The notes under the pieces: generated by a model
Seen by the model: only the letters and a program-made list of their open reading frames with translations
Databases searched by the model: none
Told to the model about the DNA's origin: nothing
Position numbers and translations under genes: made by a program
Source: Litorimonas taeanensis
GTDB taxonomy: Bacteria > Pseudomonadota > Alphaproteobacteria > Caulobacterales > Maricaulaceae
Reading direction: 5' to 3'
Assembly: GCF_003634015.1 (NCBI RefSeq)
Contig: NZ_RBII01000001.1
Coordinates: forward strand, 1,364,001-1,428,000
DNA: 64,000 nt
Shown here: positions 10,091 through 50,951 of the stretch, piece after piece
How positions within the stretch are numbered: position 1 is the first letter of the stretch
Layout of the letters: every line of letters begins with the position of its first letter

Positions 10091-10104
10091 AATACAGTGT
10101 CCAT

Positions 10105-12758: not shown

Positions 12759-12807
12759 ATCTTTAGCTCCTCCGGCAGTGAAAAATGTTTACTCTCGATT
12801 AGTATCC

Positions 12808-16824: not shown

Positions 16825-16829
16825 AACAG

Positions 16830-18538: not shown

Positions 18539-18540
18539 GT

Positions 18541-19353
18541 TTAAATCTTTCTCGCTGCAAGTATGCGCTCAGCCTTTTTCACCAGCGGCGTCTCTATTAA
18601 TTTTCCATCTAATAGCGCAACATTCCCATCGGATGTTTGATACGCCGCAATCACTTTTTCTGCTTGAGCGACTTCTTCATCCGAAGGCGCTATCGCAGCA
18701 TGAATCCTAGCAATTTGAGCCGGATGAATGGCAGACCGTGAATGAATGCCAATCAATTTGGCTTGACGTGTGGTCTGCTCGCAATCCTCTAAGTCCCGCA
18801 CATGAATGTGGGGCACATCAAATAGCTGAACATTATGAGCTGTCGCGGCCGCCACGAGTTTAGACCGTGCATACAAATGCGTTTCCCACTCTAAATCACA
18901 ATCCACATCGCCAGCATAATCAATTGCGCCATAGAGTGCGAGCTTGGCGCGTTTATGAGAGAGAATATCTCCCGCATTCATCAACCCCAAAGCGCTTTCA
19001 ATTATAACAAAGAAATCACCCGCTTCTTTTGGCAAAGCTTTATCCAAGGCTTTGAGTTGCTTTTTAGTAGAGACCTTTGGAATCATGACAAAAGGAAGCG
19101 AGACACCGCTAGACGCAATCGCTTCTATGTCCCCTTTTGCAAATGGGTTGTCCATGGCATTGATACGTAAGCCAACATTTTTATGTTTTGTCTCGGCAAG
19201 CCAGGCCAAGGTGGATTCTCTGGCTGATACTTTATCGTCTGGCGCCACAGCATCCTCAAGATCGATACACACTAAATCGGCGCCAGCCTGACAAGCCTTT
19301 TCAAATCTATCCGGGCGATTTCCAGGGACGAATAATTGGGATCTATAATAGAT
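18541..19353 (-). CDS. HpcH/HpaI (CitE-like) CoA-ester lyase, apparent ATC start
   Basis: This CitE-like TIM-barrel protein would cleave malyl-, citramalyl- or similar CoA esters to an acyl-CoA plus a 2-oxo acid. Motifs: RSQLFVPGNRPDRF at the N-terminus, LVCIDLEDAV, FFVIIESALGLMNAG and LYGAIDYAGD. The family N-terminus is encoded in frame, but the first ATG/GTG/TTG is the GTG at 19272, which would remove the first beta strand. The only good start is an ATC at 19353, preceded by GGAG at a spacing of seven and lying four bases after the stop of the upstream gene. This gives 270 residues, the family norm. Either the gene starts at ATC by translational coupling, or an ATG was mutated or misread. 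Confidence 0.8.
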   Translation of the reverse strand: MYYRSQLFVPGNRPDRFEKACQAGADLVCIDLEDAVAPDDKVSARESTLAWLAETKHKNVGLRINAMDNPFAKGDIEAIASSGVSLPFVMIPKVSTKKQLKALDKALPKEAGDFFVIIESALGLMNAGDILSHKRAKLALYGAIDYAGDVDCDLEWETHLYARSKLVAAATAHNVQLFDVPHIHVRDLEDCEQTTRQAKLIGIHSRSAIHPAQIARIHAAIAPSDEEVAQAEKVIAAYQTSDGNVALLDGKLIETPLVKKAERILAARKI

Positions 19354-19357
19354 AGCT

Positions 19358-20242
19358 CTACTCCGGCTTTACGTGTTTAGCGAAATGATTTGCGATATCT
19401 TCGCGCGTGGCAATCCAAACATCACTGCGATCTTTGACATACTCTAAAAACACCTTGAACGCCCAGATCCGTCCGGGCCTGCCAATTATACGAAGATGCA
19501 ACCCTAGACTCATCATGCGCGCGCCTTCTGATGACGCCTCTTCAAGAAGTTCATCAAAAGTTCGTTTCGCATAGCTTAACCACATCTCGGCTGTAAAACT
19601 TGGAGACAGCCAAAATTTCATATCATTACTATCAACCGCATAAGGCAAAACAATAATTGGCGGCGTTCCATCATCAAAGCTTTCCCAACGCGGGAAGTCG
19701 TCAGAGAAATCATCCATGTGATAAAGATACCCTTGCTTTGCCAAAGTTTTCCGCAAATGATCAGTATGTAGATAGCGCGACAAATACCCTACGGGTTTAC
19801 GCCCTGTGGTCGCTAAAATACTATCCGTGCCTTTTTGAACGAAAGCCGCCTCTTTGGCCTCATCCATAAAGGCCGTAAATAACCAGCGATAACCATGTGA
19901 GACAGGCTCATCACCACGAGAAGAAATCTCATTCGCGAGCCATGGAGCTTTTTCAAGCGCCTGCGCGCACACAGTCCAGCTGGCCTTTACGCCCGCATCA
20001 TTCAAAGCACGTAAAATTCGAGGTGCACCACGATTTATTCCGTATTGGTAATTGCTCTCATTACCATGCACGCGAATTGGCGCTTTTAGACCTGTAACAA
20101 GTTCATCTACAGGCTCGTTCGCCTTATCACCTTGCAACAAACCTCGCTCAGCCCCCTCTTCTACATTGACAACTATTGAGAGCGCTAGCTTCGCGCCATT
20201 GGGCCATGAAAATCCATTTGGCGCCGGATCTGTCATACTCAT
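19358..20242 (-). CDS. NodB/PuuE-like hydrolase (imidase/allantoinase-type)
   Basis: This 294-residue protein is annotated by fold as polysaccharide deacetylase, but its layout is that of the PuuE allantoinase branch: NVEEGAERG, PVSHGYRW and LHLRIIGRPGRI (GRP-R motif). It has no signal peptide, so it is cytoplasmic and not a cell-wall or chitin enzyme. As I recall, this branch also contains bacterial cyclic-imide hydrolases. It may therefore open a cyclic ureide or imide ring. It abuts the SDR gene and sits just before the CitE-like gene. Two paralogues lie at 25639 and 26573. Confidence 0.85.
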   Translation of the reverse strand: MSMTDPAPNGFSWPNGAKLALSIVVNVEEGAERGLLQGDKANEPVDELVTGLKAPIRVHGNESNYQYGINRGAPRILRALNDAGVKASWTVCAQALEKAPWLANEISSRGDEPVSHGYRWLFTAFMDEAKEAAFVQKGTDSILATTGRKPVGYLSRYLHTDHLRKTLAKQGYLYHMDDFSDDFPRWESFDDGTPPIIVLPYAVDSNDMKFWLSPSFTAEMWLSYAKRTFDELLEEASSEGARMMSLGLHLRIIGRPGRIWAFKVFLEYVKDRSDVWIATREDIANHFAKHVKPE

Positions 20243-21076
20243 TTAATGGGGCTCCTCACCACCAGAGACATTCATACTCTCGGCGGTAATGTATTTCGCA
20301 TCATCAGAACATAGGAAGGCAATGGCATTCGCAGTATCTTCTGGCAGACCCGGACGCCCCATAGGAATACGGGCGGCCATCGCTTTTAAATAATCTTCAA
20401 CGCTATCAGCCCCTGTAACTTCGGCAAAATATTCGTTTTGCCAGGCCCCCAGAGCCGTCGTGACATGGTTAGGACACACATTATTGACCGTGATATTATG
20501 CGGGCCAAGCTCCGTCGCAGCAGATCTGACCAACCCAACGAGGCCATGTTTGGAACTTGTATAAGCCTGAGCATGCGGAAAGCCTGATTTAGCAGCCTGT
20601 GACGCGACATTGATAATTCGCCCACCAGTGCCCTGCGCAACCATAACTTCTGCGGCAGACTTCACCCCAAAAAAGGAGCCCGATAAATTGACGTCTATAA
20701 CAGCGCGCCAATCATCTTCGGTTACATCAAGCAAGGGTTTCATGATGTAACCAATACCCGCATTGTTAATCCAGATATCAAGCGAACCATGCGTTTCCTT
20801 TGCATGCGCCGCAAGCTTTCTTACATCCGTCAAAGAGCGCACATCGCAGACACATGTTGAGCTCTCCACGCCCATATCACGCATTTCTTGCGCAATTGAT
20901 TCCATCTCGTCTGAGCTCCCAATATGCTCGGCGCCTGTCGCAGCGTCGCGAGGCTCTCCAATATCGGAAATGACTATATTAGCGCCGTCAGCGGCTAACC
21001 TCTTCGCAATCGCTTCACCAAGACCGCCGCGACGTCCAGACCCTGTAATGACCGCTGTTTTACCTTTGAACCGCAT
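20243..21076 (-). CDS. Short-chain dehydrogenase/reductase
   Basis: This 277-residue classical SDR has the cofactor loop TGSGRRGGLG (11-20), NNAG (104-107) and catalytic Ser159, Tyr172 and Lys176 (YTSSK). Asp38 at the end of the second strand suggests NAD(H) preference. The C-terminus is normal. It overlaps the REDY-like gene by one base. It would oxidise or reduce a hydroxyl/keto group of a pathway intermediate; substrate unknown. Confidence 0.93.
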   Translation of the reverse strand: MRFKGKTAVITGSGRRGGLGEAIAKRLAADGANIVISDIGEPRDAATGAEHIGSSDEMESIAQEMRDMGVESSTCVCDVRSLTDVRKLAAHAKETHGSLDIWINNAGIGYIMKPLLDVTEDDWRAVIDVNLSGSFFGVKSAAEVMVAQGTGGRIINVASQAAKSGFPHAQAYTSSKHGLVGLVRSAATELGPHNITVNNVCPNHVTTALGAWQNEYFAEVTGADSVEDYLKAMAARIPMGRPGLPEDTANAIAFLCSDDAKYITAESMNVSGGEEPH

Positions 21077-21387
21077 TACAGTTTTTCCGTTTGAATAAAG
21101 ACCAAATCATCAACCATAGCCTGAAACTCTGCCGCTACTTTTTGCATGGTTTCGCTGCTGGCCTCTGCGCCAAACGCATCCATGTCTAAAATATCAATAG
21201 TTTCAAAATATTGATAAGGCGGCTTATCTTCAGAAAACAAAAGCCCCGTTGTTTTAAAGACCTCAAACTTTTCAATAGACCCTAACCCGTTGACAGTCGG
21301 AATATCGACGGTCTTTGCCCACGCCTCATAGTCCTCTACGGAAGTTCCAGCTTTTAAATTAAAAAGTGCAAGTATCTTTGCGGCCAT
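21076..21387 (-). CDS. REDY/HapK-like small protein
   Basis: This protein of about 103 residues resembles the REDY-like HapK family (dimeric alpha/beta barrel), named from a prodigiosin-type pigment cluster. Visible pattern: ILALFNLKAG, DYEAWAKTVDIPTV, KFEVFKTTGLL, PPYQYFE and VFIQTE. Function is not established. I chose the ATG at 21387, nine codons inside the longest frame, because GGAGAG lies six bases before it. It is the first gene of the long operon. The family call is from pattern memory. Confidence 0.7.
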   Translation of the reverse strand: MAAKILALFNLKAGTSVEDYEAWAKTVDIPTVNGLGSIEKFEVFKTTGLLFSEDKPPYQYFETIDILDMDAFGAEASSETMQKVAAEFQAMVDDLVFIQTEKL

Positions 21388-21437
21388 TATGCTCTCCATT
21401 CTTGCACAATTCATGTCTTTTTACAGAACGCCTCGCT

Positions 21438-23943: not shown

Positions 23944-24864
23944 TTAAGAGACAGAATACGTCTTAGGTAGTCCAGCATTTGGCGTGAATCCGTATACTGG
24001 CTCTCCTGGAAGTCCTTCTTCCAGATATTTGCGGCAAGCCATCAAGTGATCCAAATCAATGCCCGTATCAACACCCATCGCCTCAAACATATAAACGAGG
24101 TCTTCAGTGACAATATTGCCACTTGCACCTGGGGATGCTGGACAGCCGCCTAACCCGCCTTGGGAACTATCAAAAACTTCAATACCTTCTTCATAGGCAG
24201 AGAATGCGTTCGCAATGCCAAGGCCATAGGTGTTGTGCAAATGCACTGATTTTACCTTTTCTTGGCCAACTGCGTCTCGCATTGATTTAATCATTGATTT
24301 GATTTGCAGCGGGTTTGCATATCCCACTGTGTCAGAAAGTCCGAGCTCGTCTACGCCGGCTTCGACAAGGCGCTCTCCTAAGGAAATAACTTTTGCTTCT
24401 GGAACATGGCCTTCAATAGAGCAGCCAAATGCAGTTGATACTCCGGCTTCAAAACGTGGTGGATTAGAAGACGCATCAAACAAAGTCCGAATCGATTTGA
24501 CATTTTCGATAACTTGATCGTGCGTTTGCCTCATATTTTTTAATGAATGCGTTTCGCTCGCCGATAATGGGAGCGTTACAGCGTCAACGCCAGCATCTAG
24601 CGCCGCTTGCGCTCCACGAAAATTAGGGATGAGCGCTAAAACGGTTAACCCTGGCAAAGTTTTTGCAAAAGCGACAATCTCTGCCGTATCAGCCAATTGC
24701 GGAAAGAGTTTTGGCGGAACAAAACTACCGACTTCAATTTCACGTACTCCGGCATCATATAATCCCTTAACCCAACGCTTTTTAACGTCGGTCGGCATAA
24801 CGCCTTTACAATTTTGCAATCCGTCCCGTGGGCCAACTTCGGATATAAGAATTTTATCTTTCAT
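23944..24864 (-). CDS. HMG-CoA-lyase-like enzyme (DRE-TIM family)
   Basis: This protein of about 306 residues is a DRE-TIM metallolyase: GPRDGLQN at the start of the barrel, EVGSFVPPK, VHLHNTYGLG with the metal His pair, and GLGGCPASPGASGN with the active-site loop Cys. HMG-CoA lyase cleaves a tertiary 3-hydroxyacyl-CoA to an oxo acid and acyl-CoA; a citramalyl-CoA-like or alkylmalyl-CoA substrate is equally possible. I chose the ATG at 24864 because AGGAAGAG precedes it; a GTG at 24879 would add five residues. It diverges from the isochorismatase-fold gene. Confidence 0.9.
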   Translation of the reverse strand: MKDKILISEVGPRDGLQNCKGVMPTDVKKRWVKGLYDAGVREIEVGSFVPPKLFPQLADTAEIVAFAKTLPGLTVLALIPNFRGAQAALDAGVDAVTLPLSASETHSLKNMRQTHDQVIENVKSIRTLFDASSNPPRFEAGVSTAFGCSIEGHVPEAKVISLGERLVEAGVDELGLSDTVGYANPLQIKSMIKSMRDAVGQEKVKSVHLHNTYGLGIANAFSAYEEGIEVFDSSQGGLGGCPASPGASGNIVTEDLVYMFEAMGVDTGIDLDHLMACRKYLEEGLPGEPVYGFTPNAGLPKTYSVS

Positions 24865-24962
24865 ATACTCTTCCTTCACTAGATGAACATTCTCACCTTT
24901 TCACCTATGGCTCTTGCGCTGCATCAACTAAACATATCAAAAATTCAGGCTTAGAGATAATT

Positions 24963-25649
24963 ATGAAAACCGAATCCACAATGACCCTCTCCGATAAGAC
25001 CGCCAGACAGATATTTGAGGAGGTACGTTCAAATCCAGCCCGAAAGCGGTTCGGTTTTGGGGAACGTATGGCCATCGTCAATGTGGACCCGCAGAAGTCT
25101 TATACCCGTCCTGACCTCTTCAAAACGGGCTATGTCACAGACCCAGAGCAAATGAGTCATATTAACGCTCTATCCAAGCTTATCCGCAGCAAAGGTTTAC
25201 CCGTCATTTGGACCCATGTTGCCTATATGGAAAACGCAGCCGATTGCGGCATTTGGGGGACACGGACAGACACGCCTGACAGCCTACAAAACATCAAATT
25301 TGGAAGTGAACGCGCAGAATTTGACGACCGCCTTGAAATCCATAGGGATGTCGATGCCGTCTATACAAAACGAATGCCGAGTGCATTTTTTGAAACCCCT
25401 CTTAATAGCTTTCTAAACTTTCATAAAATTGACACTGTTGTTGTGACTGGCGGGTCAACATCTGGCTGTGTTCGCGCCACAGCGGTGGATAGCCTGTCTT
25501 ATGGGTATCGGACTATCGTTCCGATAGAAACGACGGCCGACAAACATGAAAGCTACCACTTTGCAAACCTGACGGATCTACTGATTAAATATGCTGATGT
25601 GGTGGATGTGAAAGACGTTTATGAATGGCTTGAAAACTATGAAGGCTGA
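24963..25649 (+). CDS. Isochorismatase-fold amidohydrolase
   Basis: This 228-residue cysteine hydrolase has the full triad: Asp42 (NVDPQKSY), Lys136 (YTKRMPSAF) and Cys169 (TSGCVRATA). The C-V-R-A-T-A form and the N-terminal extension match the N-carbamoylsarcosine amidase/maleamate amidohydrolase branch rather than true isochorismatase. It is followed by two imidase-like genes and a CoA-transferase, so a half-amide (amic acid) hydrolase role is plausible: amic acid to dicarboxylate plus ammonia. Confidence 0.9.
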   Translation: MKTESTMTLSDKTARQIFEEVRSNPARKRFGFGERMAIVNVDPQKSYTRPDLFKTGYVTDPEQMSHINALSKLIRSKGLPVIWTHVAYMENAADCGIWGTRTDTPDSLQNIKFGSERAEFDDRLEIHRDVDAVYTKRMPSAFFETPLNSFLNFHKIDTVVVTGGSTSGCVRATAVDSLSYGYRTIVPIETTADKHESYHFANLTDLLIKYADVVDVKDVYEWLENYEG

Positions 25650-26580
25650 TCCCAACCTCTACGACTATTGGCCTTATGCAGGCCGGCCTAAAATAGAGTG
25701 GCCGGGCGGAAAAAAACTCGCCTTCTGGATTGCCCCGAATATTGAGTTCTATGAATTCATGCCGCCCAGCAACCCTCAGCGATCACCATGGCCGAATGCA
25801 ATTCCTAATGTGCAGCAATATAGCCAAAGAGACTTTGGGAATCGCGTTGGACACCTCCGTCTTATGGAGCTTCTTGACCGTCACAATTTGCGCGGCTCTG
25901 TTAGTTTGAATGTTGCCCTGTGCGATCATCACCCAGAAATTATCGAAGATTGTGTCAAACGAGATTGGGAATTTTTCAGCCATGGTATTTATAATACTCG
26001 GTATTCTTATGGCCTCTCCCCTGAACAAGAACAGGCCGTGTTAGATGATAGTATCAAGACTGTTGAAAAAGCGAGCGGGCAACGTATTCGGGGTTATCTT
26101 GCCCCTGCCCTTACGCACACCGAAGACACTCTTGACCTCATTGCTGAAAATGATTTCTGGTATAGCTGTGATCTCTTCCAAGACGACCAACCACAACCTC
26201 TAAAAACGAAGACAGGTAAGCTTGTCTCCATGCCTTACTCTCTTGAGGTCAATGACGTGATTACCTATTCCGTAAATGGATGGGACCCAGATCGTTACAC
26301 GGATATTTTAAAACGACATTTTGACCAATTATTACTAGAAGGCGAAAAAAGCGGGACGGTAATGTGCATTCCGCTTCACGCCTATCTTGTCAGCCAACCC
26401 AACCGTCTGAAGGTTTTTGAAGAGGCGTTAAAGCATATCTGCTCCCACCAAGATGACGTTTGGTTTGCAACCGGCAAAGAAATTGCGGAATATTTCAGAA
26501 ATAATTACTGGGACCAAAGCCTTGCAGATATCAAAGCCCGAGGCGTTGTCTCAGGCGGGACAGGGTTCAATCATGGATAA
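25639..26580 (+). CDS. NodB/PuuE-like hydrolase (paralogue 2)
   Basis: This protein of about 313 residues has the NodB-type barrel in the PuuE allantoinase layout: FWIAPNIEFYEF, FFSHGIYNTRYS and a third-motif His in PLHAYLVSQPNRL. It has no signal peptide. I chose the ATG at 25639, overlapping the upstream gene by 11 bases; an ATG at 25621 would add six residues and neither has a strong ribosome site. Its stop overlaps the next paralogue's ATG by eight bases. Cyclic imide or ureide ring opening is a context-based guess. Confidence 0.85.
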   Translation: MKADPNLYDYWPYAGRPKIEWPGGKKLAFWIAPNIEFYEFMPPSNPQRSPWPNAIPNVQQYSQRDFGNRVGHLRLMELLDRHNLRGSVSLNVALCDHHPEIIEDCVKRDWEFFSHGIYNTRYSYGLSPEQEQAVLDDSIKTVEKASGQRIRGYLAPALTHTEDTLDLIAENDFWYSCDLFQDDQPQPLKTKTGKLVSMPYSLEVNDVITYSVNGWDPDRYTDILKRHFDQLLLEGEKSGTVMCIPLHAYLVSQPNRLKVFEEALKHICSHQDDVWFATGKEIAEYFRNNYWDQSLADIKARGVVSGGTGFNHG

Positions 26581-27469
26581 ATCCTATCTTGCATATCCCA
26601 ATCGAGCTTATGGCCAAGATCATGAATTTTATGATTGGAGAATGGCTAAAGATCGCCCCTCTCTCGCATGGGAAAACGGCGCCAAAGTTGCTATTTGTTT
26701 CATTATTCCGCTTGAGTTTTTTCCGCTTAATCCCTCTGGCACGCCCTTTAAACATCCGGGGGCTATGGTTACGCCTTATCCAGATTTGCGGCATTTCACA
26801 GTTCGAGACTACGGAAATCGCATAGGTGTCTACAGAATATTAGACACTTTGAAAGCTGCGAATATTTCTGCAACATTTGCCGTTAACGGCGAAATTGCTA
26901 AACGTTATCCTCCCTTATTAAATTTTATCAGAAACGCAGGACATGAGGTTGCGGCCCATGGTCTGTCGACTGATGCTATTCACCATGAGGCATTAACGCC
27001 GACTGATGAAAACAGTCTTATAGAAAACACCTTGTATTGCTTTGACACCAAACCTGATGGATGGATGAGCCCGGCCCGAAATCAATCTTCACGGACCATT
27101 GATTTACTCACTGACCATGAAATGCATTATTGTTTGGATTGGGAGGCAGATTCTGTTCCTGTGGCAACCAAAGGTGGTTTAACACTTATCCCTAACAGTT
27201 ATGAACTATCTGATTTCACCTTGTTGCATATGCGCAAACAAGGTGAAGAGGCTTGGCTAAAGCAAATGAAGAGTTCAATAGATCTCTTAATCGAAGAGCA
27301 TTCACGTTTTGGATCGCAAATGCTGGGTCTCACCCTTACGCCTTACGTCATCGGGCAACCGTTTCGTATTTGGGCTTTGCGGGAACTTCTTTCCCACATC
27401 AATGTCACAGAGGGCGTAGAAGCCTTTACTGCTGGCGAAATCGATAAAAAATTTAGGTCCCAAAAATGA
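26573..27469 (+). CDS. NodB/PuuE-like hydrolase (paralogue 3)
   Basis: This protein of about 298 residues has the same layout as the previous gene: ICFIIPLEFFPL, EVAAHGLSTDAIHH and a third motif LTLTPYVIGQPFRI in which the expected His is replaced by Pro. With paralogue 2 it may form a two-subunit enzyme in which one copy has lost part of the active site. The start at 26573 is preferred over an in-frame ATG 120 bases upstream because the latter lies deep inside the upstream gene and adds unrelated residues. Its stop overlaps the CoA-transferase start. Confidence 0.83.
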   Translation: MDKSYLAYPNRAYGQDHEFYDWRMAKDRPSLAWENGAKVAICFIIPLEFFPLNPSGTPFKHPGAMVTPYPDLRHFTVRDYGNRIGVYRILDTLKAANISATFAVNGEIAKRYPPLLNFIRNAGHEVAAHGLSTDAIHHEALTPTDENSLIENTLYCFDTKPDGWMSPARNQSSRTIDLLTDHEMHYCLDWEADSVPVATKGGLTLIPNSYELSDFTLLHMRKQGEEAWLKQMKSSIDLLIEEHSRFGSQMLGLTLTPYVIGQPFRIWALRELLSHINVTEGVEAFTAGEIDKKFRSQK

Positions 27470-28626
27470 GTCTTCCCCTTAACGGTATAAAAGTTATTGA
27501 ATTTTCCCATATGGTGATGGGGCCTTGCGCCGGCCTTATGCTCGCCGATCTGGGGGCAGATGTCATCAAGGTCGAACCCATTGGCGGTGATAAAACACGG
27601 CGCCTACGCGGGGCTGGGGCGGGATATTTTCCAATGTATAACCGCAATAAAAGATCATTGGCAATTGACCTGAAATCTCAAGAGGGCAAAGCCGCTGTCT
27701 TAGAACTGATTAAAACGGCTGATGTCTTTATCGAAAACTTCCGTCCCGGTGCATTAGACAAACTTGGGTTTGGCTGGGATGACCTTTCTGCGCTTAATCC
27801 AGCGCTTATATATTGCTCAGAAAAAGGGTTTCTCGAAGGCCCCTACTCCCATCGCACGGCGCTTGATGAAGTCACTCAGATGATGGGCGGACTTGCCTAT
27901 ATGACGGGGCCTCCTGGACGGCCACTTCGCGCCGGCACTTCTGTCGTCGATATTACGGGTGGTATGTTTGGCGCTATGGGTATTCTGGCGGCTATGAATG
28001 AACGGCACGTGACGGGTAAAGGAAAGCGCATTACAGCAGCGCTTTACGAGACAACAGCCTTCTTGGTTGGACAGCATATGGCACAGAAAGCTGTTACAGG
28101 GACGGCTGCGGCCCCAATGCCTGCGAGAGTCTCTAGCTGGGCTATTTACCAGCTATTCGACACAAAAGATGATGAGCAAGTATTTGTCGGAGTTGTCAGT
28201 GATGGCCAATGGAAAATTCTCTGCAATGCGTTCGGGCTCGAACATTTACTAGAGGACCCAGAACTCGCCGAAAACCGAGACCGCGTTATTAATAAAGACA
28301 AGTTTCTGCCGCAAATCGAAGCCGCCTTTAAATCAATGACCAAGGCTGACCTTATGGCTAAGATTGAAAATCTTGGCTTACCATTTGCTCCAATTGGTAA
28401 ACCAGAAGAGCTCTTCGATGACCCTCACCTGAATGCTGAAGGCGGATTATTAGATATGGAAATGGAAGATGGCGGCCGTTGCAAGCTCCCTGCATTGCCT
28501 ATTTCTTTGGACGGTAAACGCCCAGCTTTGCAAATGGATCCGCCAAAAGCAGGTGAGCATACAGACGACATTCTGGCTAGCTTAGGTTTGGATGTTGCCG
28601 ACCTGAAAAGCCGCGGCGTTATTTAA
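27466..28626 (+). CDS. Family III CoA-transferase (CaiB/BaiF type)
   Basis: This 386-residue protein has FSHMVMGPCAGLMLADLGA, NRNKRSLAIDLKS, ENFRPGALDKLGF and catalytic Asp134 (RTALDEVTQMMGG). It is coupled by a four-base overlap to the imidase-like genes. With the amidase upstream and the convergent LeuCD-like genes it could load CoA onto the dicarboxylate or hydroxydicarboxylate product. Its stop overlaps the LeuD-like stop by four bases on the other strand. Confidence 0.92.
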   Translation: MSLPLNGIKVIEFSHMVMGPCAGLMLADLGADVIKVEPIGGDKTRRLRGAGAGYFPMYNRNKRSLAIDLKSQEGKAAVLELIKTADVFIENFRPGALDKLGFGWDDLSALNPALIYCSEKGFLEGPYSHRTALDEVTQMMGGLAYMTGPPGRPLRAGTSVVDITGGMFGAMGILAAMNERHVTGKGKRITAALYETTAFLVGQHMAQKAVTGTAAAPMPARVSSWAIYQLFDTKDDEQVFVGVVSDGQWKILCNAFGLEHLLEDPELAENRDRVINKDKFLPQIEAAFKSMTKADLMAKIENLGLPFAPIGKPEELFDDPHLNAEGGLLDMEMEDGGRCKLPALPISLDGKRPALQMDPPKAGEHTDDILASLGLDVADLKSRGVI

Positions 28627-29195
28627 TAGGCCCAAGGTCTATTGACTTTATCCTGCGCAATGAAGGCATCAATTTCGGCCTGTTTTTGTAGCGTCATTGC
28701 GATAGGATCGAGCCCGCCTACAAGCATGGCCTTATCGCCTTCGGGAATATCGAAAGAGACTCCATTGACCGTTTGCCCTTGCAAATCAATTGTTAATGTC
28801 TTTGGCAATTTGTAAATGTGTTCGGCGCTTAATTGTATAGGTAAAATGCCGTTTCTAACGCAGTTATTATAGAATATCTCTCCGAAGCTTTCCGCGACAA
28901 CAGCTCGAAAGCCATATTCCTTTAGCGCCCAAACTGCATGTTCCCGTGATGAGCCACAACCAAAATTTTGCCCGCTCAAAAGGATACTCGCCGCTTCATA
29001 GCCTTGTTGGTTTAGGATGAAATCTGGATTGGGTATACGGTCTTTAATATATCTTTGCCCCGCAAATAATCCATCTTTCAAACCCGTTTTATAAACTGAC
29101 TTCATCTCACGGGATGGAATGATTTGGTCTGTGTCGACATTGTCACGAATAAAAGGTGCTGCAACACCTGTGTGTATAATAAAAGGAGCGTTCAT
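28623..29195 (-). CDS. LeuD-like small subunit of an aconitase-type hydro-lyase
   Basis: This 190-residue swivel domain of the isopropylmalate isomerase/dimethylmaleate hydratase type has DNVDTDQIIPSREM, NFGCGSSREHAVWALK and FGEIFYNNCVRNGILP. The start at 29195 is chosen because it aligns with the family N-terminus and overlaps the LeuC-like stop (ATGA); the frame stays open upstream but only within LeuC. Leucine biosynthesis is possible, but the neighbours argue for hydration of an alkylmaleate. Confidence 0.9.
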   Translation of the reverse strand: MNAPFIIHTGVAAPFIRDNVDTDQIIPSREMKSVYKTGLKDGLFAGQRYIKDRIPNPDFILNQQGYEAASILLSGQNFGCGSSREHAVWALKEYGFRAVVAESFGEIFYNNCVRNGILPIQLSAEHIYKLPKTLTIDLQGQTVNGVSFDIPEGDKAMLVGGLDPIAMTLQKQAEIDAFIAQDKVNRPWAY

Positions 29196-30565
29196 GATGT
29201 TAAAGAAATCCGTCCAGCAAGAGCCGAGGCCGCCACTATAGCGGGACTCGCTAAATGGGTGCGGACACCCGGCCCCTGTCGACCTTCGAAGTTTCGATTG
29301 GTTGAAGAAATAACACGCGAACCGGGAGAAAAGGTTTCTCCGCCTGCATAGAAACAAAACGCACACCCCGCAGCGCCCCATTCAAAACCTGCGGCTTTGA
29401 AAATTTTATCAAGCCCTTCAGCTTCCGCAGCACGCCGTACAGCCATAGAGCCCGGAACACATATTGCGGTGACGCCTGAGGCCACTTTCTGGCCTTCAAG
29501 AATTTTAGCGGCAATGCGTAGGTCTGAAAGACGCGCATTCGTACAGGAGCCGATAAAAGCTCCGTCTATTTTTAAATCCGTTATGGCAGTCCCAGGCCGC
29601 AAATTCATATACTCTAATGCGCGCTCTGAACTTGCATCAAGTGACGGCACTTCTCCTGTTATTGCGACAGCTTGTGAAGGGTTAGTACCCCAAGTAACAG
29701 TAGGTACCACGTCTGCGGCTTTAATAGTATAATCAAAGTCAAACTCAGCCCCATTGTCTGTCACAAGGCTTGCCCAATAGGCTTTCGCGTCATTCCACGC
29801 TTGACCTGAAGGGGCGAATTTTTTTCCCTTTACATAGTCAATTGTCGTCTCGTCAGGCGCTATGATGGCCGTAAAGGCTGCAAACTCAACGGCCATATTG
29901 CATAGGGTTAAACGCTCTTCGATTGACATGGCGGATATGGCATCTCCGCTAAACTCTACAGCGCACCTCTTAGCCCCATCAACGCCCAAAGTTTGAATGA
30001 TGTGCAAAACTAAGTCTTTTGCACTCACACCAGAGCCAAGTGCGCCGTCGACATTTATTCGCATTTGTCTGGGTTTCTTGATGCGTAAGCAGCCGGTGGC
30101 TATGGCATGTTCTGCATCAGTTGAACCAATACCCCACGCCAAGGCCCCTAATGCGCCTTGGCTACAGGTGTGACTATCAGGACACACCAAAGTTAACCCA
30201 GGTTGCGCTATCCCCAATTCGGGGGAAATCACGTGAACAATACCTTGATTGGCATCCAGTACATCAATGAGGTTAACGCCTGCTTTTTTAGCCGCACGTC
30301 TCGTGGCACTTATGAAAACATCACCGTCTGGGGTACGGGCGTCATCTTTATCACGGTCTGATTTATTTGAAACAATGTGGTCCATTGTACAGAACACATG
30401 TTCAGGTCGTACAGCTTTACGGCCACTATCTACGAGTGACATCAGCGCTACGCTTCCAGTGCGTTCGTGTAAGAACACACGATCAATGGCAATTAAATCT
30501 TCACCGCCATCCAACGACTGGACAAGGTGTTGATTCCACAATTTATCAAAGAGAGTTTCTTCCAT
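29192..30565 (-). CDS. LeuC-like large subunit of an aconitase-type hydro-lyase
   Basis: This protein of about 457 residues has the 4Fe-4S ligands in IGSCTNARL and GCAFC, and the family segments CPDSHTCSQGALGALAWGIG and STNRNFEGRQG. The usual GCSMCLxMN stretch after the cluster Cys pair is GCAFCFYAGGE here, so the substrate-binding edge differs from ordinary isopropylmalate dehydratase. The start at 30565 gives the typical MEETLFDKLW beginning; a longer frame adds nine unrelated residues. It lies downstream of a TonB receptor gene across a perfect inverted repeat. Confidence 0.9.
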   Translation of the reverse strand: MEETLFDKLWNQHLVQSLDGGEDLIAIDRVFLHERTGSVALMSLVDSGRKAVRPEHVFCTMDHIVSNKSDRDKDDARTPDGDVFISATRRAAKKAGVNLIDVLDANQGIVHVISPELGIAQPGLTLVCPDSHTCSQGALGALAWGIGSTDAEHAIATGCLRIKKPRQMRINVDGALGSGVSAKDLVLHIIQTLGVDGAKRCAVEFSGDAISAMSIEERLTLCNMAVEFAAFTAIIAPDETTIDYVKGKKFAPSGQAWNDAKAYWASLVTDNGAEFDFDYTIKAADVVPTVTWGTNPSQAVAITGEVPSLDASSERALEYMNLRPGTAITDLKIDGAFIGSCTNARLSDLRIAAKILEGQKVASGVTAICVPGSMAVRRAAEAEGLDKIFKAAGFEWGAAGCAFCFYAGGETFSPGSRVISSTNRNFEGRQGPGVRTHLASPAIVAASALAGRISLTS

Positions 30566-30573
30566 ACCATAAT

Positions 30574-30610
30574 ATATAAGGCAGCCATCCAAAAGACGAC
30601 TGCCTTATAT
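30574..30610. terminator. Perfect 11-bp inverted repeat between receptor and LeuC-like genes
   Basis: ATATAAGGCAG and CTGCCTTATAT flank a 15-base loop, just after the TonB receptor stop (30636, minus strand) and nine bases before the LeuC-like ATG. It could be a partial terminator/attenuator or a protein-binding site. There is no long T-run. Confidence 0.5.
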
Positions 30611-30635: not shown

Positions 30636-32807
30636 TTAGAAATCAAAACCAAAATCAATACCGTAAGTCGCGGGTTCAGACGCATATGCTGATGATCCCG
30701 ACGCGGCTGAGACACGCCACACATGTTCATCAGTAATGTTTTTTGCCCAAACGGCTACATTCCAAAAGCTGTCATTTGGTGTGAATGCCACGCGTGCATT
30801 CAGCAGCGGCGGAATGTCAGTCGTCGCAACAGAAGGTGTGTTTGCAACCAAACTAAAGGATTTCGCTTCGAAACTAATATCCCCTCCTATTGCTAACTCA
30901 CCGGCTGCCAATGGGTGCTTATACAAGGCAGCAATGCTGGCTTTATAATCAGGCGCATTTTTTAAATCTAAATCAAGCGCACAATTTGGTGTTAACACGC
31001 CATTCGCGCACCCTGCACCGTTATTAGAGAGCCCTCCATTTTGCGCATCTGTAATAGATGTGTATTTCGCATCAAGAAGGCCTAAATTTGCGTTCATTTC
31101 AAAACGATCCGTCGGCGCAAATGTCATTTCAAACTCAAGACCAGAAATCTTGGATTCATCTACATTAAATCGTGTAAACCCAAGTCCAGGAACACTCGCT
31201 GCAATTTGAAGGTTATCATATTGGTTATTAAAGTAAGTGGCATTGAAACGCAGGCGGTTATCCCAAATCTGAGATTTCAACCCTGTCTCAATTGTGGCTA
31301 CTTTTTCTTCGTCTACAGGTAAGAAACAAGCCGCGGCACCGAAGCAATCAGGAGACCAACCACCAGATTTAAAGCCTGTAGAATATGAAGCATAAACAAG
31401 AGCATTCTCTGTTAAATCATAGTCAGCTTTAACTGTGAAACTTGTATTATTGAAGTCAGCACTTTCTACTCTTGAAAGCGTGCCTTGTGATCCAGAATAG
31501 TCTTTTGTCTCATCTGTATAACGAATACCGCCCGTTAAGGTCAGACGATCTGAAACATCAAAGTTAACCTGTCCAAAACCTGCAAAGCTTTCTGTTTCTG
31601 AATGCATCTCATGTGGGAAAACAAAAACACTATCAAGCTTCATATCTTCGCTGAAATAATAACCGCCAATAACAAAGTTAAATGGGCCCCCATAATTTGA
31701 ACTTAGTGTCAGCTCTTGAGAAGTTTGTTCTTGGTCAGTTTCTTGAAGATACGCGAAACCAATATGGCTGCTTAAGAAATCATCTAGCTTTCTATGCGCC
31801 GTGATAGATTGAACGGTAAAATCGCCTAGCTCACCTGTAATTGTCGCAGAGATACCTTGGGATTCCGTCCGGCTCTCAAAATTATTGAAACAACCAATAG
31901 GGCGGAAATCAAACGCCGTAATAGGTGAAAGAGAGCTTTGAGAACAGGTGACACCAGCTTGGGGTTCAACCGTAAATAAGTCTCCATCTACATCATCAGG
32001 CGCGACACTACTTGGAATTGGATCTGATTTATCGTCGGTGTAATCCGCGGCGATGAGAACATTCCAGTTCTCTCCAAAGTCTTGGCTTAATTGCCCGCGT
32101 AGTGACAAAGTATCTAAATCACCAACTTCTTCGGTGGCTTCGCTTGCAGCGACACCATTAGGATTAATATCAAAGAAGCCATCTCGCTGACGATACATAC
32201 CCGTTAGGCGGACAGCCGTTGAATCTGACAATGCATAATTCGCCGTTCCGCGCAGGTCTAACCGGTTATTATTCCCATAAGTGACTTTGGCAGAGAGGCT
32301 TTGCTCTTGCTGAGGCTTAATACTGACGAGCTTGATCGCGCCGCCATTTGTGCTGCGCCCGTACAGTGTGCCTTGAGGCCCGCGCAAGACTTCTATGCGC
32401 TCCAAATCCACGACATCAAATAAGGCGCCAACAGAACGACTGACAAAGACGCCATCTACATACACACCAACGGCTGTATCAACGGCGCCGCGCGACTCAT
32501 CTTCTCCGACCCCTCTAAGAAAGATACGACCTGAATTCGATGTGCCGGTACCCGTTGCAATGGAAATATTGGGAATTTGGTTTTGGAGATCTAAAACATT
32601 TTGAATATTCCGATTTTCCAATTGCTCCGTAGAGATTGAAGTAATCGCAACAGGCACGTCTTGCAGGTTCTCTTCAGCTCTTTGAGCCGTCACAACGACC
32701 TCATCTATCTGCGCTAGAACTGTATTTGGGGCGGCGAATATCGCGAGTGAACCCATCGCTATCTTAATAGCTGATGACGCAGTTGTGGTTTTTAGTAGGT
32801 TTTTCAT
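30636..32807 (-). CDS. TonB-dependent outer-membrane receptor
   Basis: This 723-residue receptor has a signal peptide ending VLA before QID, a TonB box (DEVVVTAQR), and a plug with DVPVAITSIS, IFLRGVG, VDGVFVSRSV and RIEVLRGPQGTLYGRSTNGGAI. The barrel ends in Phe (DFGFDF). It belongs to the large proteobacterial catabolism-associated receptor group with unpredictable substrates. It lies upstream of the LeuCD-like genes in the same direction, so it may import the substrate of that module. Confidence 0.94.
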   Translation of the reverse strand: MKNLLKTTTASSAIKIAMGSLAIFAAPNTVLAQIDEVVVTAQRAEENLQDVPVAITSISTEQLENRNIQNVLDLQNQIPNISIATGTGTSNSGRIFLRGVGEDESRGAVDTAVGVYVDGVFVSRSVGALFDVVDLERIEVLRGPQGTLYGRSTNGGAIKLVSIKPQQEQSLSAKVTYGNNNRLDLRGTANYALSDSTAVRLTGMYRQRDGFFDINPNGVAASEATEEVGDLDTLSLRGQLSQDFGENWNVLIAADYTDDKSDPIPSSVAPDDVDGDLFTVEPQAGVTCSQSSLSPITAFDFRPIGCFNNFESRTESQGISATITGELGDFTVQSITAHRKLDDFLSSHIGFAYLQETDQEQTSQELTLSSNYGGPFNFVIGGYYFSEDMKLDSVFVFPHEMHSETESFAGFGQVNFDVSDRLTLTGGIRYTDETKDYSGSQGTLSRVESADFNNTSFTVKADYDLTENALVYASYSTGFKSGGWSPDCFGAAACFLPVDEEKVATIETGLKSQIWDNRLRFNATYFNNQYDNLQIAASVPGLGFTRFNVDESKISGLEFEMTFAPTDRFEMNANLGLLDAKYTSITDAQNGGLSNNGAGCANGVLTPNCALDLDLKNAPDYKASIAALYKHPLAAGELAIGGDISFEAKSFSLVANTPSVATTDIPPLLNARVAFTPNDSFWNVAVWAKNITDEHVWRVSAASGSSAYASEPATYGIDFGFDF

Positions 32808-32995: not shown

Positions 32996-33451
32996 ATGAA
33001 TAATATAGAGACGTTCCGGCGCGAGATGCCTGCAATGCTATTGCATGAGGGTGTGTGGGAAGGCGTCTATACACATATTGATAGAGACGCGGCCGTCATA
33101 GACAAACATAAAGTTAGAATTCGTTGCGAATTCCCGACTTCTGGAGAATTCGCCTATATTCAACACAATCATTTCATCTGGGAAGATGGACGTGAATATA
33201 AAGCCTGTTTACCGGGTGTGTATCAAAACGGGCGTTTATGGTGGGACTTAGAGGCCTTTAAGGGCTCGGCTTGGGAAACCAAAGATAATCTCATTTTGCT
33301 AAACTTAGACCGTAAAGATGACCCAGGTTCTAATTTTTTCGAAATCATCGCGATGGGTAGTGATGGCAAACATCGCTCTCGGACTTGGCATTGGTTCAAA
33401 GACGGCGAGCTTTTCAAACGAACGCTTTGCGACGAATGGAAGGTGGAGTAA
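32996..33451 (+). CDS. Conserved protein of unknown family (paralogue of 49467)
   Basis: This 151-residue cytoplasmic protein has no signal peptide. It shares a clear pattern with the protein at 49467: HEGVWEGVY, CEFPTSG, W-x-DGR, GRLWWD and SRTWHWFKDGELFKRTL. The many aromatic and beta-prone segments suggest a small beta-barrel (lipocalin- or nitrobindin-like), but I do not recognise the family. It begins the GntR/FAD-oxidase operon with a three-base gap to the regulator gene. Conservation of RTWHWFK in both copies suggests a functional pocket. Confidence 0.8.
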   Translation: MNNIETFRREMPAMLLHEGVWEGVYTHIDRDAAVIDKHKVRIRCEFPTSGEFAYIQHNHFIWEDGREYKACLPGVYQNGRLWWDLEAFKGSAWETKDNLILLNLDRKDDPGSNFFEIIAMGSDGKHRSRTWHWFKDGELFKRTLCDEWKVE

Positions 33452-34280: not shown

Positions 34281-35861
34281 ATGAACCCAGATGCTAAGCA
34301 AATAGACCTAAAAAACTTCAAGCAAGTTTTAGGCGCGGAGAATGTTTCAGAAGACGAAACATCACGCCAGCTTTACAGTCAGGATATTTGGGCCATTGGC
34401 GAAACTGCGGATTTCATCATCAGCCCGCAGAATACAGAGCAGCTTTCAGAGGCTATCAAGATTGCAGCGAGGGATAAAGTAAAGCTCAACCCACGCGGTG
34501 GCGGCATGTCCTATACAAAGGGTTACATCCCGTCGAAAGAGAAGACTGGCCTTGTTGATTTTACAAAAATGGACAAGATATTAGAGATAAATCAAGAGGA
34601 TATGTACGTCACAGTCCAAGCGGGCTGTACTTGGAAAACGCTCTATGAAGCTTTAAAACCCCTTGGCCTGCGGACGCCTTTCTGGGGACCTTTATCAGGT
34701 TTCAGCTCTACCATCGGCGGCGGTCTTTCGCAAAATAACGCCTTTTTCGGGAGCGGAACGCATGGCCCCTCTACTGATAGCGTTACATCCCTCACTGTCG
34801 TTCTGGCGGATGGAAGCATCGTCAAAACGGGTACGGCAGCCAGCCCTCATGGGAAACCATTCTGGCGTCAATACGGCCCAGATTTAACAGGTTTGTTTTT
34901 ATCGGATGCGGGAGCTCTAGCTTATAAAGCAGAAGCCACGCTCCGCTTGATTCCAACGCCTTTGGCTGAGGATTGGATGAGCGCTGAATTTGACACCAGA
35001 GACGACTGGGCCGGGGCTATGGCTGAAATGGGACGACTAGGGTTAGCCTGTGAATTATTCGGATTTGACCCTAGCCTCACAAAGGTGCGTATGAAACGTG
35101 CCAGCCTGACTGAAGATGTCAAAGCCTTGAAAAATGTTATCAAAGGCCAAGGCGGCCTCATTAAGGGCCTGAAACAAGGTGCAAAGGTCGCACTCGCGGG
35201 CCGAGGCTATATGGATAATGTCGCCTATTCGCTTCATGCGGCTGTCGAAGGCCATTCTCAAGCCGAAGTTGAAGCCAAAACAAAAACGCTTAAAGCTATT
35301 GTTAGCCGCCATAACGGTAAGGACATTGAAAACTCTATCCCTAAAATCGTGCGCTCTAATCCTTTTGGCCCTTTAAATAATATTCTTGGCCCTGAAGGGA
35401 AACGCTGGGCCCCTCTTCACGGTATTGTACCCATGGGTGACGCTGTAAAATGCGCCGCCGATATAGATGCAATGTTTGAGACCATGAAACCCGAGTTCGA
35501 ACAACACGGAATATATACGGGGGCGCTGTTTACAACCCTTTCCAATAATGGGTTTCTTATCGAACCCGTATTTTACTGGCCTGAAGAGATTTTTTCTATT
35601 CATGAACAAACGGTTGAACCTGGCGTCCTTAAGAGAGTTAAGCGGTTTGACAAAAACCCTGAGGCAACAGCGATAGTTGAAAAAGGGCGGCAAAACTTGC
35701 TTGATATTTTCTCTCAGTATGGCGCCGCACACTTCCAAATTGGCCGAACATATCCTTACCTTAAAAACATGTCCCCAGAAACCCAGTCAGTTTTAAAGAT
35801 GATTAAGTCGGGCCTAGACCCTGACCATTTAATTAATTCTGGCTCCCTTGGCCTAGAATAA
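34281..35861 (+). CDS. FAD-linked oxidase of the VAO/PCMH family
   Basis: This 526-residue flavoprotein has an FAD-binding PCMH domain (LNPRGGGMSYTKGY, VTVQAGCTWKTLYEAL, GPLSGFSSTIGGGLSQN) and a C-terminal substrate domain ending DPDHLINSGSLGLE, like GlcD or vanillyl-alcohol-oxidase relatives. No signal peptide. It would oxidise a hydroxyl, amine or C-C bond with FAD. It is the first enzyme after the GntR gene and leads an operon with VOC, reductase and unknown genes. Confidence 0.9.
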   Translation: MNPDAKQIDLKNFKQVLGAENVSEDETSRQLYSQDIWAIGETADFIISPQNTEQLSEAIKIAARDKVKLNPRGGGMSYTKGYIPSKEKTGLVDFTKMDKILEINQEDMYVTVQAGCTWKTLYEALKPLGLRTPFWGPLSGFSSTIGGGLSQNNAFFGSGTHGPSTDSVTSLTVVLADGSIVKTGTAASPHGKPFWRQYGPDLTGLFLSDAGALAYKAEATLRLIPTPLAEDWMSAEFDTRDDWAGAMAEMGRLGLACELFGFDPSLTKVRMKRASLTEDVKALKNVIKGQGGLIKGLKQGAKVALAGRGYMDNVAYSLHAAVEGHSQAEVEAKTKTLKAIVSRHNGKDIENSIPKIVRSNPFGPLNNILGPEGKRWAPLHGIVPMGDAVKCAADIDAMFETMKPEFEQHGIYTGALFTTLSNNGFLIEPVFYWPEEIFSIHEQTVEPGVLKRVKRFDKNPEATAIVEKGRQNLLDIFSQYGAAHFQIGRTYPYLKNMSPETQSVLKMIKSGLDPDHLINSGSLGLE

Positions 35862-35874
35862 AGAGACGCTCAGA

Positions 35875-36768
35875 ATGCATTTAATCCGATCAGCCACTTT
35901 AACAGTTAAGGACTTACAGCGTTCACAGTCGGATTATTGCCAATGGCTCGGTTATAAACTGGTGGAACAAGGGCGTATTTCACCTTCTCTTGCAATAAGT
36001 TGGGGCGCTAAGAAGACTGAAGGCTGCCCTTATTGCATTTTGCAGCCTGCCTCTAACGCGCCAGTCTATATAAGATTGATCGAGCAACCTTTAATGCCAG
36101 ATTACAAGCCTTTGCGAACCTATGGATGGGCAGCGATTGAAATTTGCAACCAAGATACTTTGGCCGTGAATGATATTATGGACAAGTCACCCTTTGAAAT
36201 AATCGGGCCGCCAAAAACGCTTGATGGCATACCTGAAATATTCCCCATGCAAGTCAGTGGGCCAGACCAAGAGATAGTTTACCTCACTGAAATTCGTGGC
36301 AATTTAAAAGATTATGATTTGCCGAGAGCCGAAAGCTTGATTGATAAATTATTTATTCTCGTCTCGGCGTGTTCAGACATAGAAAAGACATCTGAGTGGC
36401 TAGAAAATCACATTTTGGTCTCTAAGGGTCAATCTGTCAAAATGATCTATTCAATGATAAATAAATCATTCAATTTACCAAACGATACCAAACATGCACT
36501 CATGACTTTGCAGCATGAGAGAGATGTCTTTTTACAAATAGATTCATACCCAGACGCTGCAACACCGCGAACATCCCACCCAGATATGTTACCGCCCTGC
36601 ACCGCTATTGGGAGCTTCGTCCACCCCGATTTTGATAAGCTCGCTGAAATAAACAAAGCGCATTGGATTACCCCCCCAACGCACCGCGATGGTGAAATCT
36701 ACAAAGGTAAGCGGGCAGCAACGCTCCGTGATCCAGACGGCACACTGATAGAATTGATTGAGGCATAA
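35875..36768 (+). CDS. VOC-superfamily protein (glyoxalase/dioxygenase fold), two modules
   Basis: This 297-residue protein has a first VOC module at the N-terminus (MHLIRSATLTVKDLQRSQ, WLGYKLVEQG) and a second ending in KRAATLRDPDGTLIELIEA, where the final Glu is a typical metal ligand. The first module appears to lack one His ligand. Whether it acts as dioxygenase, isomerase or a binding protein cannot be told. The stop is directly followed by the reductase ATG. Confidence 0.82.
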   Translation: MHLIRSATLTVKDLQRSQSDYCQWLGYKLVEQGRISPSLAISWGAKKTEGCPYCILQPASNAPVYIRLIEQPLMPDYKPLRTYGWAAIEICNQDTLAVNDIMDKSPFEIIGPPKTLDGIPEIFPMQVSGPDQEIVYLTEIRGNLKDYDLPRAESLIDKLFILVSACSDIEKTSEWLENHILVSKGQSVKMIYSMINKSFNLPNDTKHALMTLQHERDVFLQIDSYPDAATPRTSHPDMLPPCTAIGSFVHPDFDKLAEINKAHWITPPTHRDGEIYKGKRAATLRDPDGTLIELIEA

Positions 36769-42224: not shown

Positions 42225-42286
42225 GGGATCCCTTTTTATCTGTATGCCTGTGTGCAGATATAATTGGGTCACATGGTCATTATAAT

Positions 42287-49971: not shown

Positions 49972-50002
49972 AAAAAAGCCCCTTCAAAAGGGGCTTTTTT
50001 TT
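49972..50002. terminator. Bidirectional rho-independent terminator
   Basis: AAAAAAGCCCCTT and AAGGGGCTTTTTT flank a three-base loop between the convergent genes ending at 49970 and 50001. T-runs on both strands make it work in both directions. Confidence 0.92.
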
Positions 50003-50936: not shown

Positions 50937-50951
50937 GACTTCTCCCATTAA

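Follow-up and report, generated by a model that had tools for sequence, protein, structure and literature searches.

Nicotinate fermentation by Eubacterium barkeri ends with dimethylmaleate hydratase and dimethylmalate lyase, and simple imides, for example succinimide and maleimide, are metabolized by Blastobacter. A first-pass annotation of the DNA analysed here supposed that enzymes of the PuuE branch open imides, which agrees with the imidase activity documented in the PuuE/NodB superfamily for HxnM and its homologue YZ-26 (excerpts of PMC9304392). A cluster encoding a CoA-transferase, Ich, Ccl, an acyl-CoA dehydrogenase and an MmgE/PrpD protein degrades methylsuccinate, the origin of which was unclear until recently; the MmgE/PrpD protein is an isomerase, and its authors suggest that the site might accommodate larger C3-modified substrates (excerpts of PMC12290011). 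The present DNA, hereafter the window, is a stretch of 64,000 nucleotides from Litorimonas taeanensis (positions 1364001-1428000 of contig C1; genome of 2.78 Mb in three contigs). Analysis of its sequence suggests, at somewhat better than even likelihood, that it contains an island for the catabolism of alkyl-substituted five-membered cyclic imides by two branches, the likeliest parent being a linear tetrapyrrole or chlorophyll breakdown product. The observations are the gene content, linkage that recurs, two alternative endings with different lyases and an association of the gene NodB1 with CpeT and DUF1838; the substrates, the reactions and the origin from tetrapyrroles are all inferred.

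The core of the island (Table 1) consists of a 3-hydroxy-3-methylglutaryl-CoA (HMG-CoA) lyase homologue (HMGL), an isochorismatase-fold amidase (ISOC), two PuuE-type hydrolases (NodB1 and NodB2), a family III CoA-transferase (CaiB3) and a LeuC/LeuD-like pair (LeuCD). All are open reading frames with the expected domains above Pfam cut-offs, packed together as the first-pass annotation described. ISOC, NodB1, NodB2 and CaiB3 overlap one another (gaps of -29, -8 and -4); the core is not one operon, HMGL being divergent from these four genes and LeuD-LeuC convergent on them. ISOC, NodB1 and NodB2 are referred to below as the trio.

In the proposed unsaturated branch, NodB1, the predicted catalytic imidase subunit, would open an alkylmaleimide to the amic acid with NodB2 as its predicted partner subunit; ISOC, a predicted half-amidase converting alkylmaleamate to alkylmaleate and ammonia, would remove the nitrogen; the genome's second LeuCD, a predicted alkylmaleate hydratase, would yield alkylcitramalate; CaiB3, a predicted alkylmalate CoA-transferase, would form the CoA ester; and HMGL, a predicted alkylcitramalyl-CoA lyase, would cleave this to pyruvate and an acyl-CoA, namely butyryl-CoA from ethylmethylmaleimide or glutaryl-CoA from hematinic acid. 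NodB1 and NodB2, like a third such protein (NodB3) encoded elsewhere in the window, score above the PF01522 cut-off and thus belong by sequence to the polysaccharide-deacetylase/PuuE superfamily. The His of the SHG motif (H121 in NodB1) is kept in 18 of 18 aligned sequences; in NodB2, which is 24% identical to NodB1, the matching position is His in 7 of 11 aligned sequences, the window copy included, and Tyr or Asn in the other 4. D42, K136 and C169 of ISOC, which we take to be its catalytic triad, are invariant in 15 of 15 aligned sequences, fitting the isochorismatase fold with its Asp-Lys-Cys triad. The NCBIfam models closest to CaiB3 (succinate-glutarate, formyl and others) all score below cut-off. 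HMGL passes NF004283 (284.8 bits against a cut-off of 246) and has HMG-CoA lyases as its best solved relatives; gene context points to a predicted substrate other than HMG-CoA.

The step order of this branch draws on recurrence of the core. Among 289 genomes drawn from the class, NodB1 relatives occur in 49 at E <= 1e-40, 13 of them with identity of at least 59%; in the 20 neighbourhoods fetched, NodB2 is near NodB1 in 18, and ISOC as well in 14. At 80 NodB1 loci in named genomes (the best 80 of 573, several cut by contig ends), ISOC is present in 70, NodB2 in 63, both in 56 and LeuC in 41. When LeuC was required to align over 150 residues, which left 40 of the 80 loci, the lyases divided by LeuC type: 19 loci with a LeuC of the window type (at least 50% identity) have an orthologous HMGL (at least 57%) in 11 cases and a lyase of the phosphoenolpyruvate (PEP)-mutase superfamily in none, whereas 21 loci with another LeuC, one of which may be a leucine gene, have the PEP-mutase-superfamily lyase in 19 cases and an orthologous HMGL in none. 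The PEP-mutase-superfamily lyase is similar to methylisocitrate lyase and more distantly to 2,3-dimethylmalate lyase. An HMGL of 36-39% identity at five loci, four of them in Kordiimonas, is presumably a leucine-degradation gene and was excluded from the orthologue count. This division fits a sequence from imide through amic acid, alkylmaleate and alkylmalate to pyruvate and an acyl unit, and no evidence for the proposed order is stronger than the occurrence of two unrelated lyase endings beside the same trio. The chain from imide to pyruvate plus acyl-CoA that the first-pass annotation had put forward thus gains comparative support for its order, its substrate being deduced as before.

The search for the same gene order elsewhere, which that annotation recommended, also extends to plasmids. 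NodB1 relatives of less than 60% identity are found on 23 plasmid records, and the trio is accompanied by LeuCD and a lyase in three of the five regions opened. Sphingomonas sp. JE1 plasmid pJE1 carries HMGL, ISOC, NodB1, NodB2, LeuC, LeuD and a PEP-mutase-type lyase in a single run, next to CaiB and one more LeuCD (no relevant paper on pJE1 or on strain JZ-6 appeared among the matches listed); an Acidiphilium multivorum plasmid carries HMGL, the trio, LeuCD, CaiB and a FAD_binding_2 protein close to insertion sequences; and a Burkholderia plantarii plasmid carries the trio, LeuCD and a PEP-mutase-type lyase. In two Robiginitomaculum metagenome-assembled genomes (MAGs; loci L107 and L113, Pfam for L107 only) two CaiB genes come after the trio, together with Amidohydro_2, cupin, VOC, a second isochorismatase and U244.

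A saturated branch is predicted from the 14-gene operon at 7601-21414, all on the minus strand with gaps of -4 to 85 bp, which encodes, by rising coordinate, an amidase, a PaaK-like ligase, PrpD1, PrpD2, an MFS-type transporter (judged by sequence), CMD, CaiB1, CaiB2, an acyl-CoA dehydrogenase, MaoC, CitE, NodB3, an SDR and a HapK-like protein. The first-pass annotation had recognized this operon, with its third NodB gene, CitE, MaoC, acyl-CoA dehydrogenase and amidase, and had added it to the same chain; a reading as a succinimide branch, parallel to that chain and resembling the methylsuccinate route (excerpts of PMC12290011), is preferable. The operon has counterparts of every gene type in the methylsuccinate cluster (CaiB, acyl-CoA dehydrogenase, MaoC, CitE and PrpD, five in all), and their combination with NodB3 and an amidase suggests a route from succinimides: NodB3, a predicted succinimide-type imidase, and the amidase would convert a succinimide to a substituted succinate; PrpD1 and PrpD2, predicted epimerases of substituted succinates, would epimerize it and CaiB1 and CaiB2 activate it; and the acyl-CoA dehydrogenase, a predicted alkylsuccinyl-CoA dehydrogenase, would act with MaoC and CitE to give pyruvate and an acyl-CoA, as in methylsuccinate degradation. 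The presence of two PrpD genes could reflect the needs of a 2,3-disubstituted succinate, which has two stereocentres. The nearest solved relatives of PrpD2 are IRG1 of Bacillus and IDS epimerase; FadE3 is the solved chain nearest to the acyl-CoA dehydrogenase, the methylsuccinyl-CoA dehydrogenase 8ciw ranking lower; MaoC and CitE come closest to RipB (Ich) and RipC (Ccl) of itaconate degradation; MaoC is 80-90% identical in relatives that carry it beside CitE and the acyl-CoA dehydrogenase; and CitE scores 162.7 bits with RipC_Ccl, below the cut-off of 375, the open reading frame scored being N-terminally short. At full length CitE has no ATG, GTG or TTG start: the open frame upstream of the GTG at 19272 reads RSQLFVPGNRPDRFEKA, and GGAG stands a few bases before an in-frame ATC.

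In a second set, comprising 105 genomes of the family of Hirschia maritima (Hyphomonadaceae), 25 have NodB1 at E < 1e-50 (four further matches near 1e-21 were dropped), and 10 of these 25 have a NodB3-like match on the same contig as NodB1, at a distance of 19.5-27.6 kb; in two other genomes of this set (L134, L136) the third match is NodB3, with the same gene order.

Of the four rings in phycobilins and in chlorophyll, one is reduced and three are unsaturated, which would match a succinimide and a maleimide branch, and it is this match that makes a linear tetrapyrrole or chlorophyll breakdown product the likeliest parent. Hematinic acid and alkylmaleimides arise when chlorophyll and heme are broken down oxidatively (excerpts of PMC7318184). 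Uptake of the parent molecule would fall to TonB receptors and exported lipocalins of the CpeT type. More tentatively, and at less than even likelihood, the island may belong to a complete aerobic pathway by which heterotrophs mineralize linear tetrapyrroles (phycobilins, ring-opened chlorophyll or heme), in which CpeT lipocalins and TonB receptors would capture the pigment, periplasmic and cytosolic oxidases would cut it to imides, and the two imidase branches would turn its unsaturated and its reduced rings into pyruvate and acyl-CoA.

The genes that suggest a pigment, which the first-pass annotation did not mention, are three CpeT genes, the gene of the HapK-like protein (a name taken from prodiginine clusters) and lipocalins of CpeS-like fold. 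A genome-wide family search finds three CpeT genes, all within the window; CpeT_b adjoins one of the TonB-receptor-like genes (39876-42272), and CpeT_c aligns with the solved CpcT 4o4o (E 4.6e-5). Five CpcT positions that we take to be bilin contacts are mostly kept among 27 aligned sequences (Y65 in 24, R66 in 23, R68 in 25, C116 in 27 and C137 in 27). The predicted model of LIPb (pLDDT 89.6, from 3 sequences) has BFA1 and a Nostoc DUF3598 protein as its best Foldseek matches, followed by CpeS-type lyases (E 3e-4). CpeT and CpcT are bilin lyases in cyanobacteria (excerpts of PMC10254012). A role for CpeT in serving the cell's own phycobiliproteins was rejected, as the phycobilisome protein PF00502 had no match in the 27 CpeT genomes tested, that of L. 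taeanensis included; heme oxygenase (PF01126), the presence of which could have indicated a bilin supply of the cell's own, was found in 3 of 26 genomes and not in L. taeanensis.

CpeT is present in 3 of the 289 class genomes (one of these has a copy of the trio some 19 kb away) and in 42 of the 80 NodB1-bearing named genomes (24 of 50 and 18 of 30), which include Bacteroidota, Gammaproteobacteria and other groups that have no background control for CpeT. In the Hirschia family, all 8 of the 105 genomes with CpeT are among the 25 with NodB1 (Fisher p = 3.9e-6); DUF1838 is seen only together with NodB1 in both sets, all 5 occurrences in the class sample being among the 13 genomes with NodB1 of at least 59% identity (p = 8e-8) and all 15 in the Hirschia family among the 25 (p = 6e-12); these tests ignore shared ancestry and use NodB1 thresholds set after the matches had been seen. 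Physical linkage points the same way. CpeT is directly upstream of ISOC in four genomes, found with a model built from an alignment that includes them, so that Pfam is the independent support. Among 20 CpeT regions chosen by hand (18 around the 49 CpeT places of the named genomes and 2 around CpeT of the class sample), CpeT adjoins a TBDT3-like receptor in 11, and in five it stands in runs with several of HMGL, CaiB3, LeuCD, NodB3, MT, HapK, SDR, FAO and DUF1838; one region (L134) had no labelled CpeT. Hirschia maritima DSM 19733 has the trio as well as CpeT and DUF1838; the literature gave no lead on DUF1838 among the matches listed.

Eight NodB1-bearing MAGs, labelled Rhodospirillaceae/Rhodospirillales, Alphaproteobacteria, Marinimicrobia and Gammaproteobacteria, have 6 to 11 CpeT matches each, the maximum of 11 being in one Rhodospirillaceae genome. 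A Cytophagales MAG carries homologues of SDR, HapK, LeuC, LIPb, HMGL and CpeT_c (32-54% identical) within 10.8 kb. At four loci of the UKL13-1/Aquidulcibacter group, CpeT and a TonB-receptor-like gene are near a chemoreceptor (698 aa) and a TauD-type dioxygenase, or near leuC/leuD homologues; a 599-aa neighbour in the UKL13-1 group proved to be DUF885, not a recognizable ring-cleaving enzyme.

Several observations weigh against an imide island fed by tetrapyrroles. The CpeT family name is no proof of bilin binding; a search for CpeT in the 80 NodB1-bearing named genomes left 38 without a match, and just 2 of the class genomes whose NodB1 is at least 59% identical, 13 in number, have it; of the 20 chosen regions, two have no pathway neighbour and two more almost none. 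A study of leaves and a herbivore detected hematinic acid and not maleimides in its own samples, as far as the excerpt of PMC7318184 goes. Within the island, no enzyme was recognized that would cleave a tetrapyrrole into imides; the predicted model of U244 resembles DUF1849; and PrpD2 seems, from the alignment, to have Asn where the isomerase set has its first His. Alternatively, the imide module could be real and serve plant, fungal or synthetic imides, with CpeT, DUF1838 and the lipocalins as co-inherited passengers handling another lipophilic compound. The core's presence on plasmids of soil, plant and sludge bacteria, where CpeT_c has no match at E <= 1e-10, and the 38 genomes without CpeT would suit that explanation; the position of CpeT inside the same gene runs at five loci and immediately before ISOC at four others does not, and we regard it as doubtful, if deserving to be taken seriously.

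The enzymes of the trio raise another question, that of a ureide or hydantoin substrate. NodB1, NodB2 and NodB3 are nearest to PuuE allantoinase; NodB1 matches the solved protein with which HxnM was compared, 3qbu, less well (E 9e-9); and the solved relatives closest to ISOC include N-carbamoylsarcosine amidohydrolases; taken alone, these proteins would fit such a substrate. The NodB pair would then be hydantoinase- or allantoinase-like, ISOC an N-carbamoyl-amino-acid amidase, and LeuCD and the lyase part of a neighbouring organic-acid pathway. Scores with the PuuE allantoinase model TIGR03212 (112.5 bits for NodB1, 66.1 for NodB2 and 211.7 for NodB3) fall far below its cut-off of 424.6. The main caution comes from Salipiger abyssi pPABY2, where a trio (NodB1 51% identical) lies beside hydantoinase A/B, amidases and a DAO-type oxidase with no LeuCD in the stretch seen, so that distant relatives of the trio may act on hydantoins; the Comamonas endophytica plasmid likewise carries the trio with no LeuCD in the stretch seen, and 40 of the 80 named loci have no LeuC aligning over 150 residues in the stretch read, some of which ends with the contig. 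What ureide or hydantoin catabolism leaves unexplained is the repeated presence beside the trio of LeuC and one of two unrelated lyases, and we judge it improbable for the window.

The imide reading further depends on LeuCD not being the leucine enzyme. By model scores LeuD passes leuD TIGR00171, and LeuC passes PRK12466 and falls below leuC TIGR00170 (511.8 against a cut-off of 560.25). The genome has three aconitase-family matches, one aconitase-sized, one on contig C2 and the window copy; on contig C2 a leuC-leuD pair precedes a gene that its N-terminal sequence marks as leuB-like, which indicates from context that the window LeuCD is not the leucine enzyme and excludes the possibility, raised in the first-pass annotation, that it is the only one in the genome. 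A role in leucine metabolism was accordingly rejected for the window copy. Ordinary leucine or branched-chain metabolism next to cell-envelope deacetylases, as neighbours by chance, is what the family names alone would suggest, and it is very improbable, being largely contradicted already by the separate leuC-leuD pair with its leuB-like gene and by linkage that recurs across genomes and plasmids.

Table 1. Features of the window discussed in the text, with positions counted from its first nucleotide
Feature	Position	Strand	Family, score or basis
HMGL (HMG-CoA-lyase homologue)	23944-24879	-	PF00682 (HMGL-like)
ISOC (isochorismatase-fold amidase)	24963-25649	+	PF00857 (Isochorismatase)
NodB1 (PuuE-type hydrolase)	25621-26580	+	PF01522 (Polysacc_deac_1)
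NodB2 (NodB1 paralogue, PuuE-type)	ORF 26453-27469, likelier start 26573	+	PF01522
CaiB3 (family III CoA-transferase)	27466-28626	+	PF02515 (CoA_transf_3)
LeuD-like small subunit	ORF 28623-29381, probable start near 29201	-	PF00694 (Aconitase_C)
LeuC-like large subunit	29192-30592	-	PF00330 (Aconitase)
Amidase	7601-8701	-	PF01425
PaaK-like CoA ligase	8702-10090	-	PF14535; PaaK models below cut-off
PrpD1 (MmgE/PrpD family)	10105-11463	-	Pfam (PF03972, PF19305 for PrpD1/PrpD2)
PrpD2 (MmgE/PrpD family)	11460-12758	-	Pfam (PF03972, PF19305 for PrpD1/PrpD2)
CaiB1 (CoA-transferase)	14576-15679	-	PF02515
CaiB2 (CoA-transferase)	15676-16824	-	PF02515
Acyl-CoA dehydrogenase	16830-18017	-	Pfam; all NCBIfam matches below cut-off
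MaoC/RipB (Ich)-like acyl-CoA hydratase	18017-18538	-	RipB_Ich 228.4 bits, below cut-off of 340
CitE/RipC-like C-C lyase	18541-19344 (ATG/GTG/TTG ORF 18541-19272)	-	PF03328
NodB3 (third PuuE-type hydrolase)	19358-20242	-	PF01522
SDR	20243-21076	-	PF13561
HapK/REDY-like protein	21076-21414	-	PF11639
CpeT_a (CpeT/CpcT family, lipobox-like N-terminus)	3410-4156	+	PF06206 43.2 bits, cut-off 21
CpeT_b (CpeT/CpcT family, lipobox-like N-terminus)	39148-39771	-	PF06206 81.1 bits
CpeT_c (CpeT/CpcT family, signal-peptide-like N-terminus)	50952-51986	-	PF06206 103.4 bits
DUF1838 protein (lipobox-like N-terminus)	50001-50948	-	PF08894
LIPa (small lipocalin-like)	32996-33451	+	39% identical to LIPb; weak DUF3598_N below cut-off
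LIPb (small lipocalin-like)	49467-49970	+	Predicted structure
FAD_binding_4 oxidase, VOC-like protein, oxidoreductase, U244	34281-38480	+	Recurrent neighbours
TonB-dependent-receptor-like	130-2625		Judged by sequence
TonB-dependent-receptor-like	30636-32807		Pfam scan
TonB-dependent-receptor-like	39876-42272		Judged by sequence
TonB-dependent-receptor-like	42496-44796		Judged by sequence

The window further contains four TonB-dependent-receptor-like genes within 45 kb (Table 1).

Chlorophyll is made and degraded each year on a scale of 10^12 kg, and maleimides and hematinic acid are reported from senescent leaves and lake sediments (excerpts of PMC7318184). Microbial recycling of pigment debris is poorly understood, and an imide pathway would bear on it; tetrapyrrole breakdown products are the most interesting candidate substrates. 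No described bacterial pathway using such alkylated imides appeared among the matches listed from the open-licence literature of PubMed Central. If the proposal is correct, it names genes and marker families (the trio, DUF1838 and exported CpeT) by which the trait could be found in other genomes, offers a possible source of substituted succinates, and makes the core useful as a group of enzymes acting on alkylmaleimides, alkylmaleates and alkylcitramalates; if the parent is indeed a tetrapyrrole, the role of CpeT here would be pigment catabolism instead of chromophore attachment.

Compared with the described systems, the island would combine features of several. As in the nicotinate fermentation of E. 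barkeri, a dialkylmaleate would be hydrated by a LeuCD-type enzyme and then cleaved to pyruvate and a short acid, and at loci where LeuC is of the other type its partner is a PEP-mutase-superfamily lyase; the window, in contrast, has a CoA-transferase and HMGL, and its dialkylmaleate would derive from an imide. The Aspergillus proteins HxnM/HxnN, and YZ-26, offer an imidase followed by an amide hydrolase, like NodB and ISOC, with HxnM and YZ-26 in the PuuE/NodB superfamily (excerpts of PMC9304392). Unlike these and the Blastobacter system, the island has two adjacent paralogous NodB proteins and an isochorismatase-fold amidase, and it continues with LeuCD and a C-C lyase, which alkylated rings would require. 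All five gene types of the itaconate/methylsuccinate cluster of Cupriavidus and Pseudomonas (Ict, Ich, Ccl, Mcd and Msi; excerpts of PMC12290011) are matched in the 14-gene operon, which differs in adding NodB3, an amidase, a PaaK-like ligase, an SDR and HapK, in having two CaiB and two PrpD genes, and in that its MaoC and CitE score below the RipB and RipC cut-offs. Finally, the window proteins share the CpeT domain of the CpcT/CpeT phycobilin lyases (three of three above the Pfam cut-off) with key positions mostly kept, whereas proteins of the window type have signal-peptide- or lipobox-like N-termini, occur in genomes without phycobilisome proteins and are often encoded beside a TonB-receptor-like gene.

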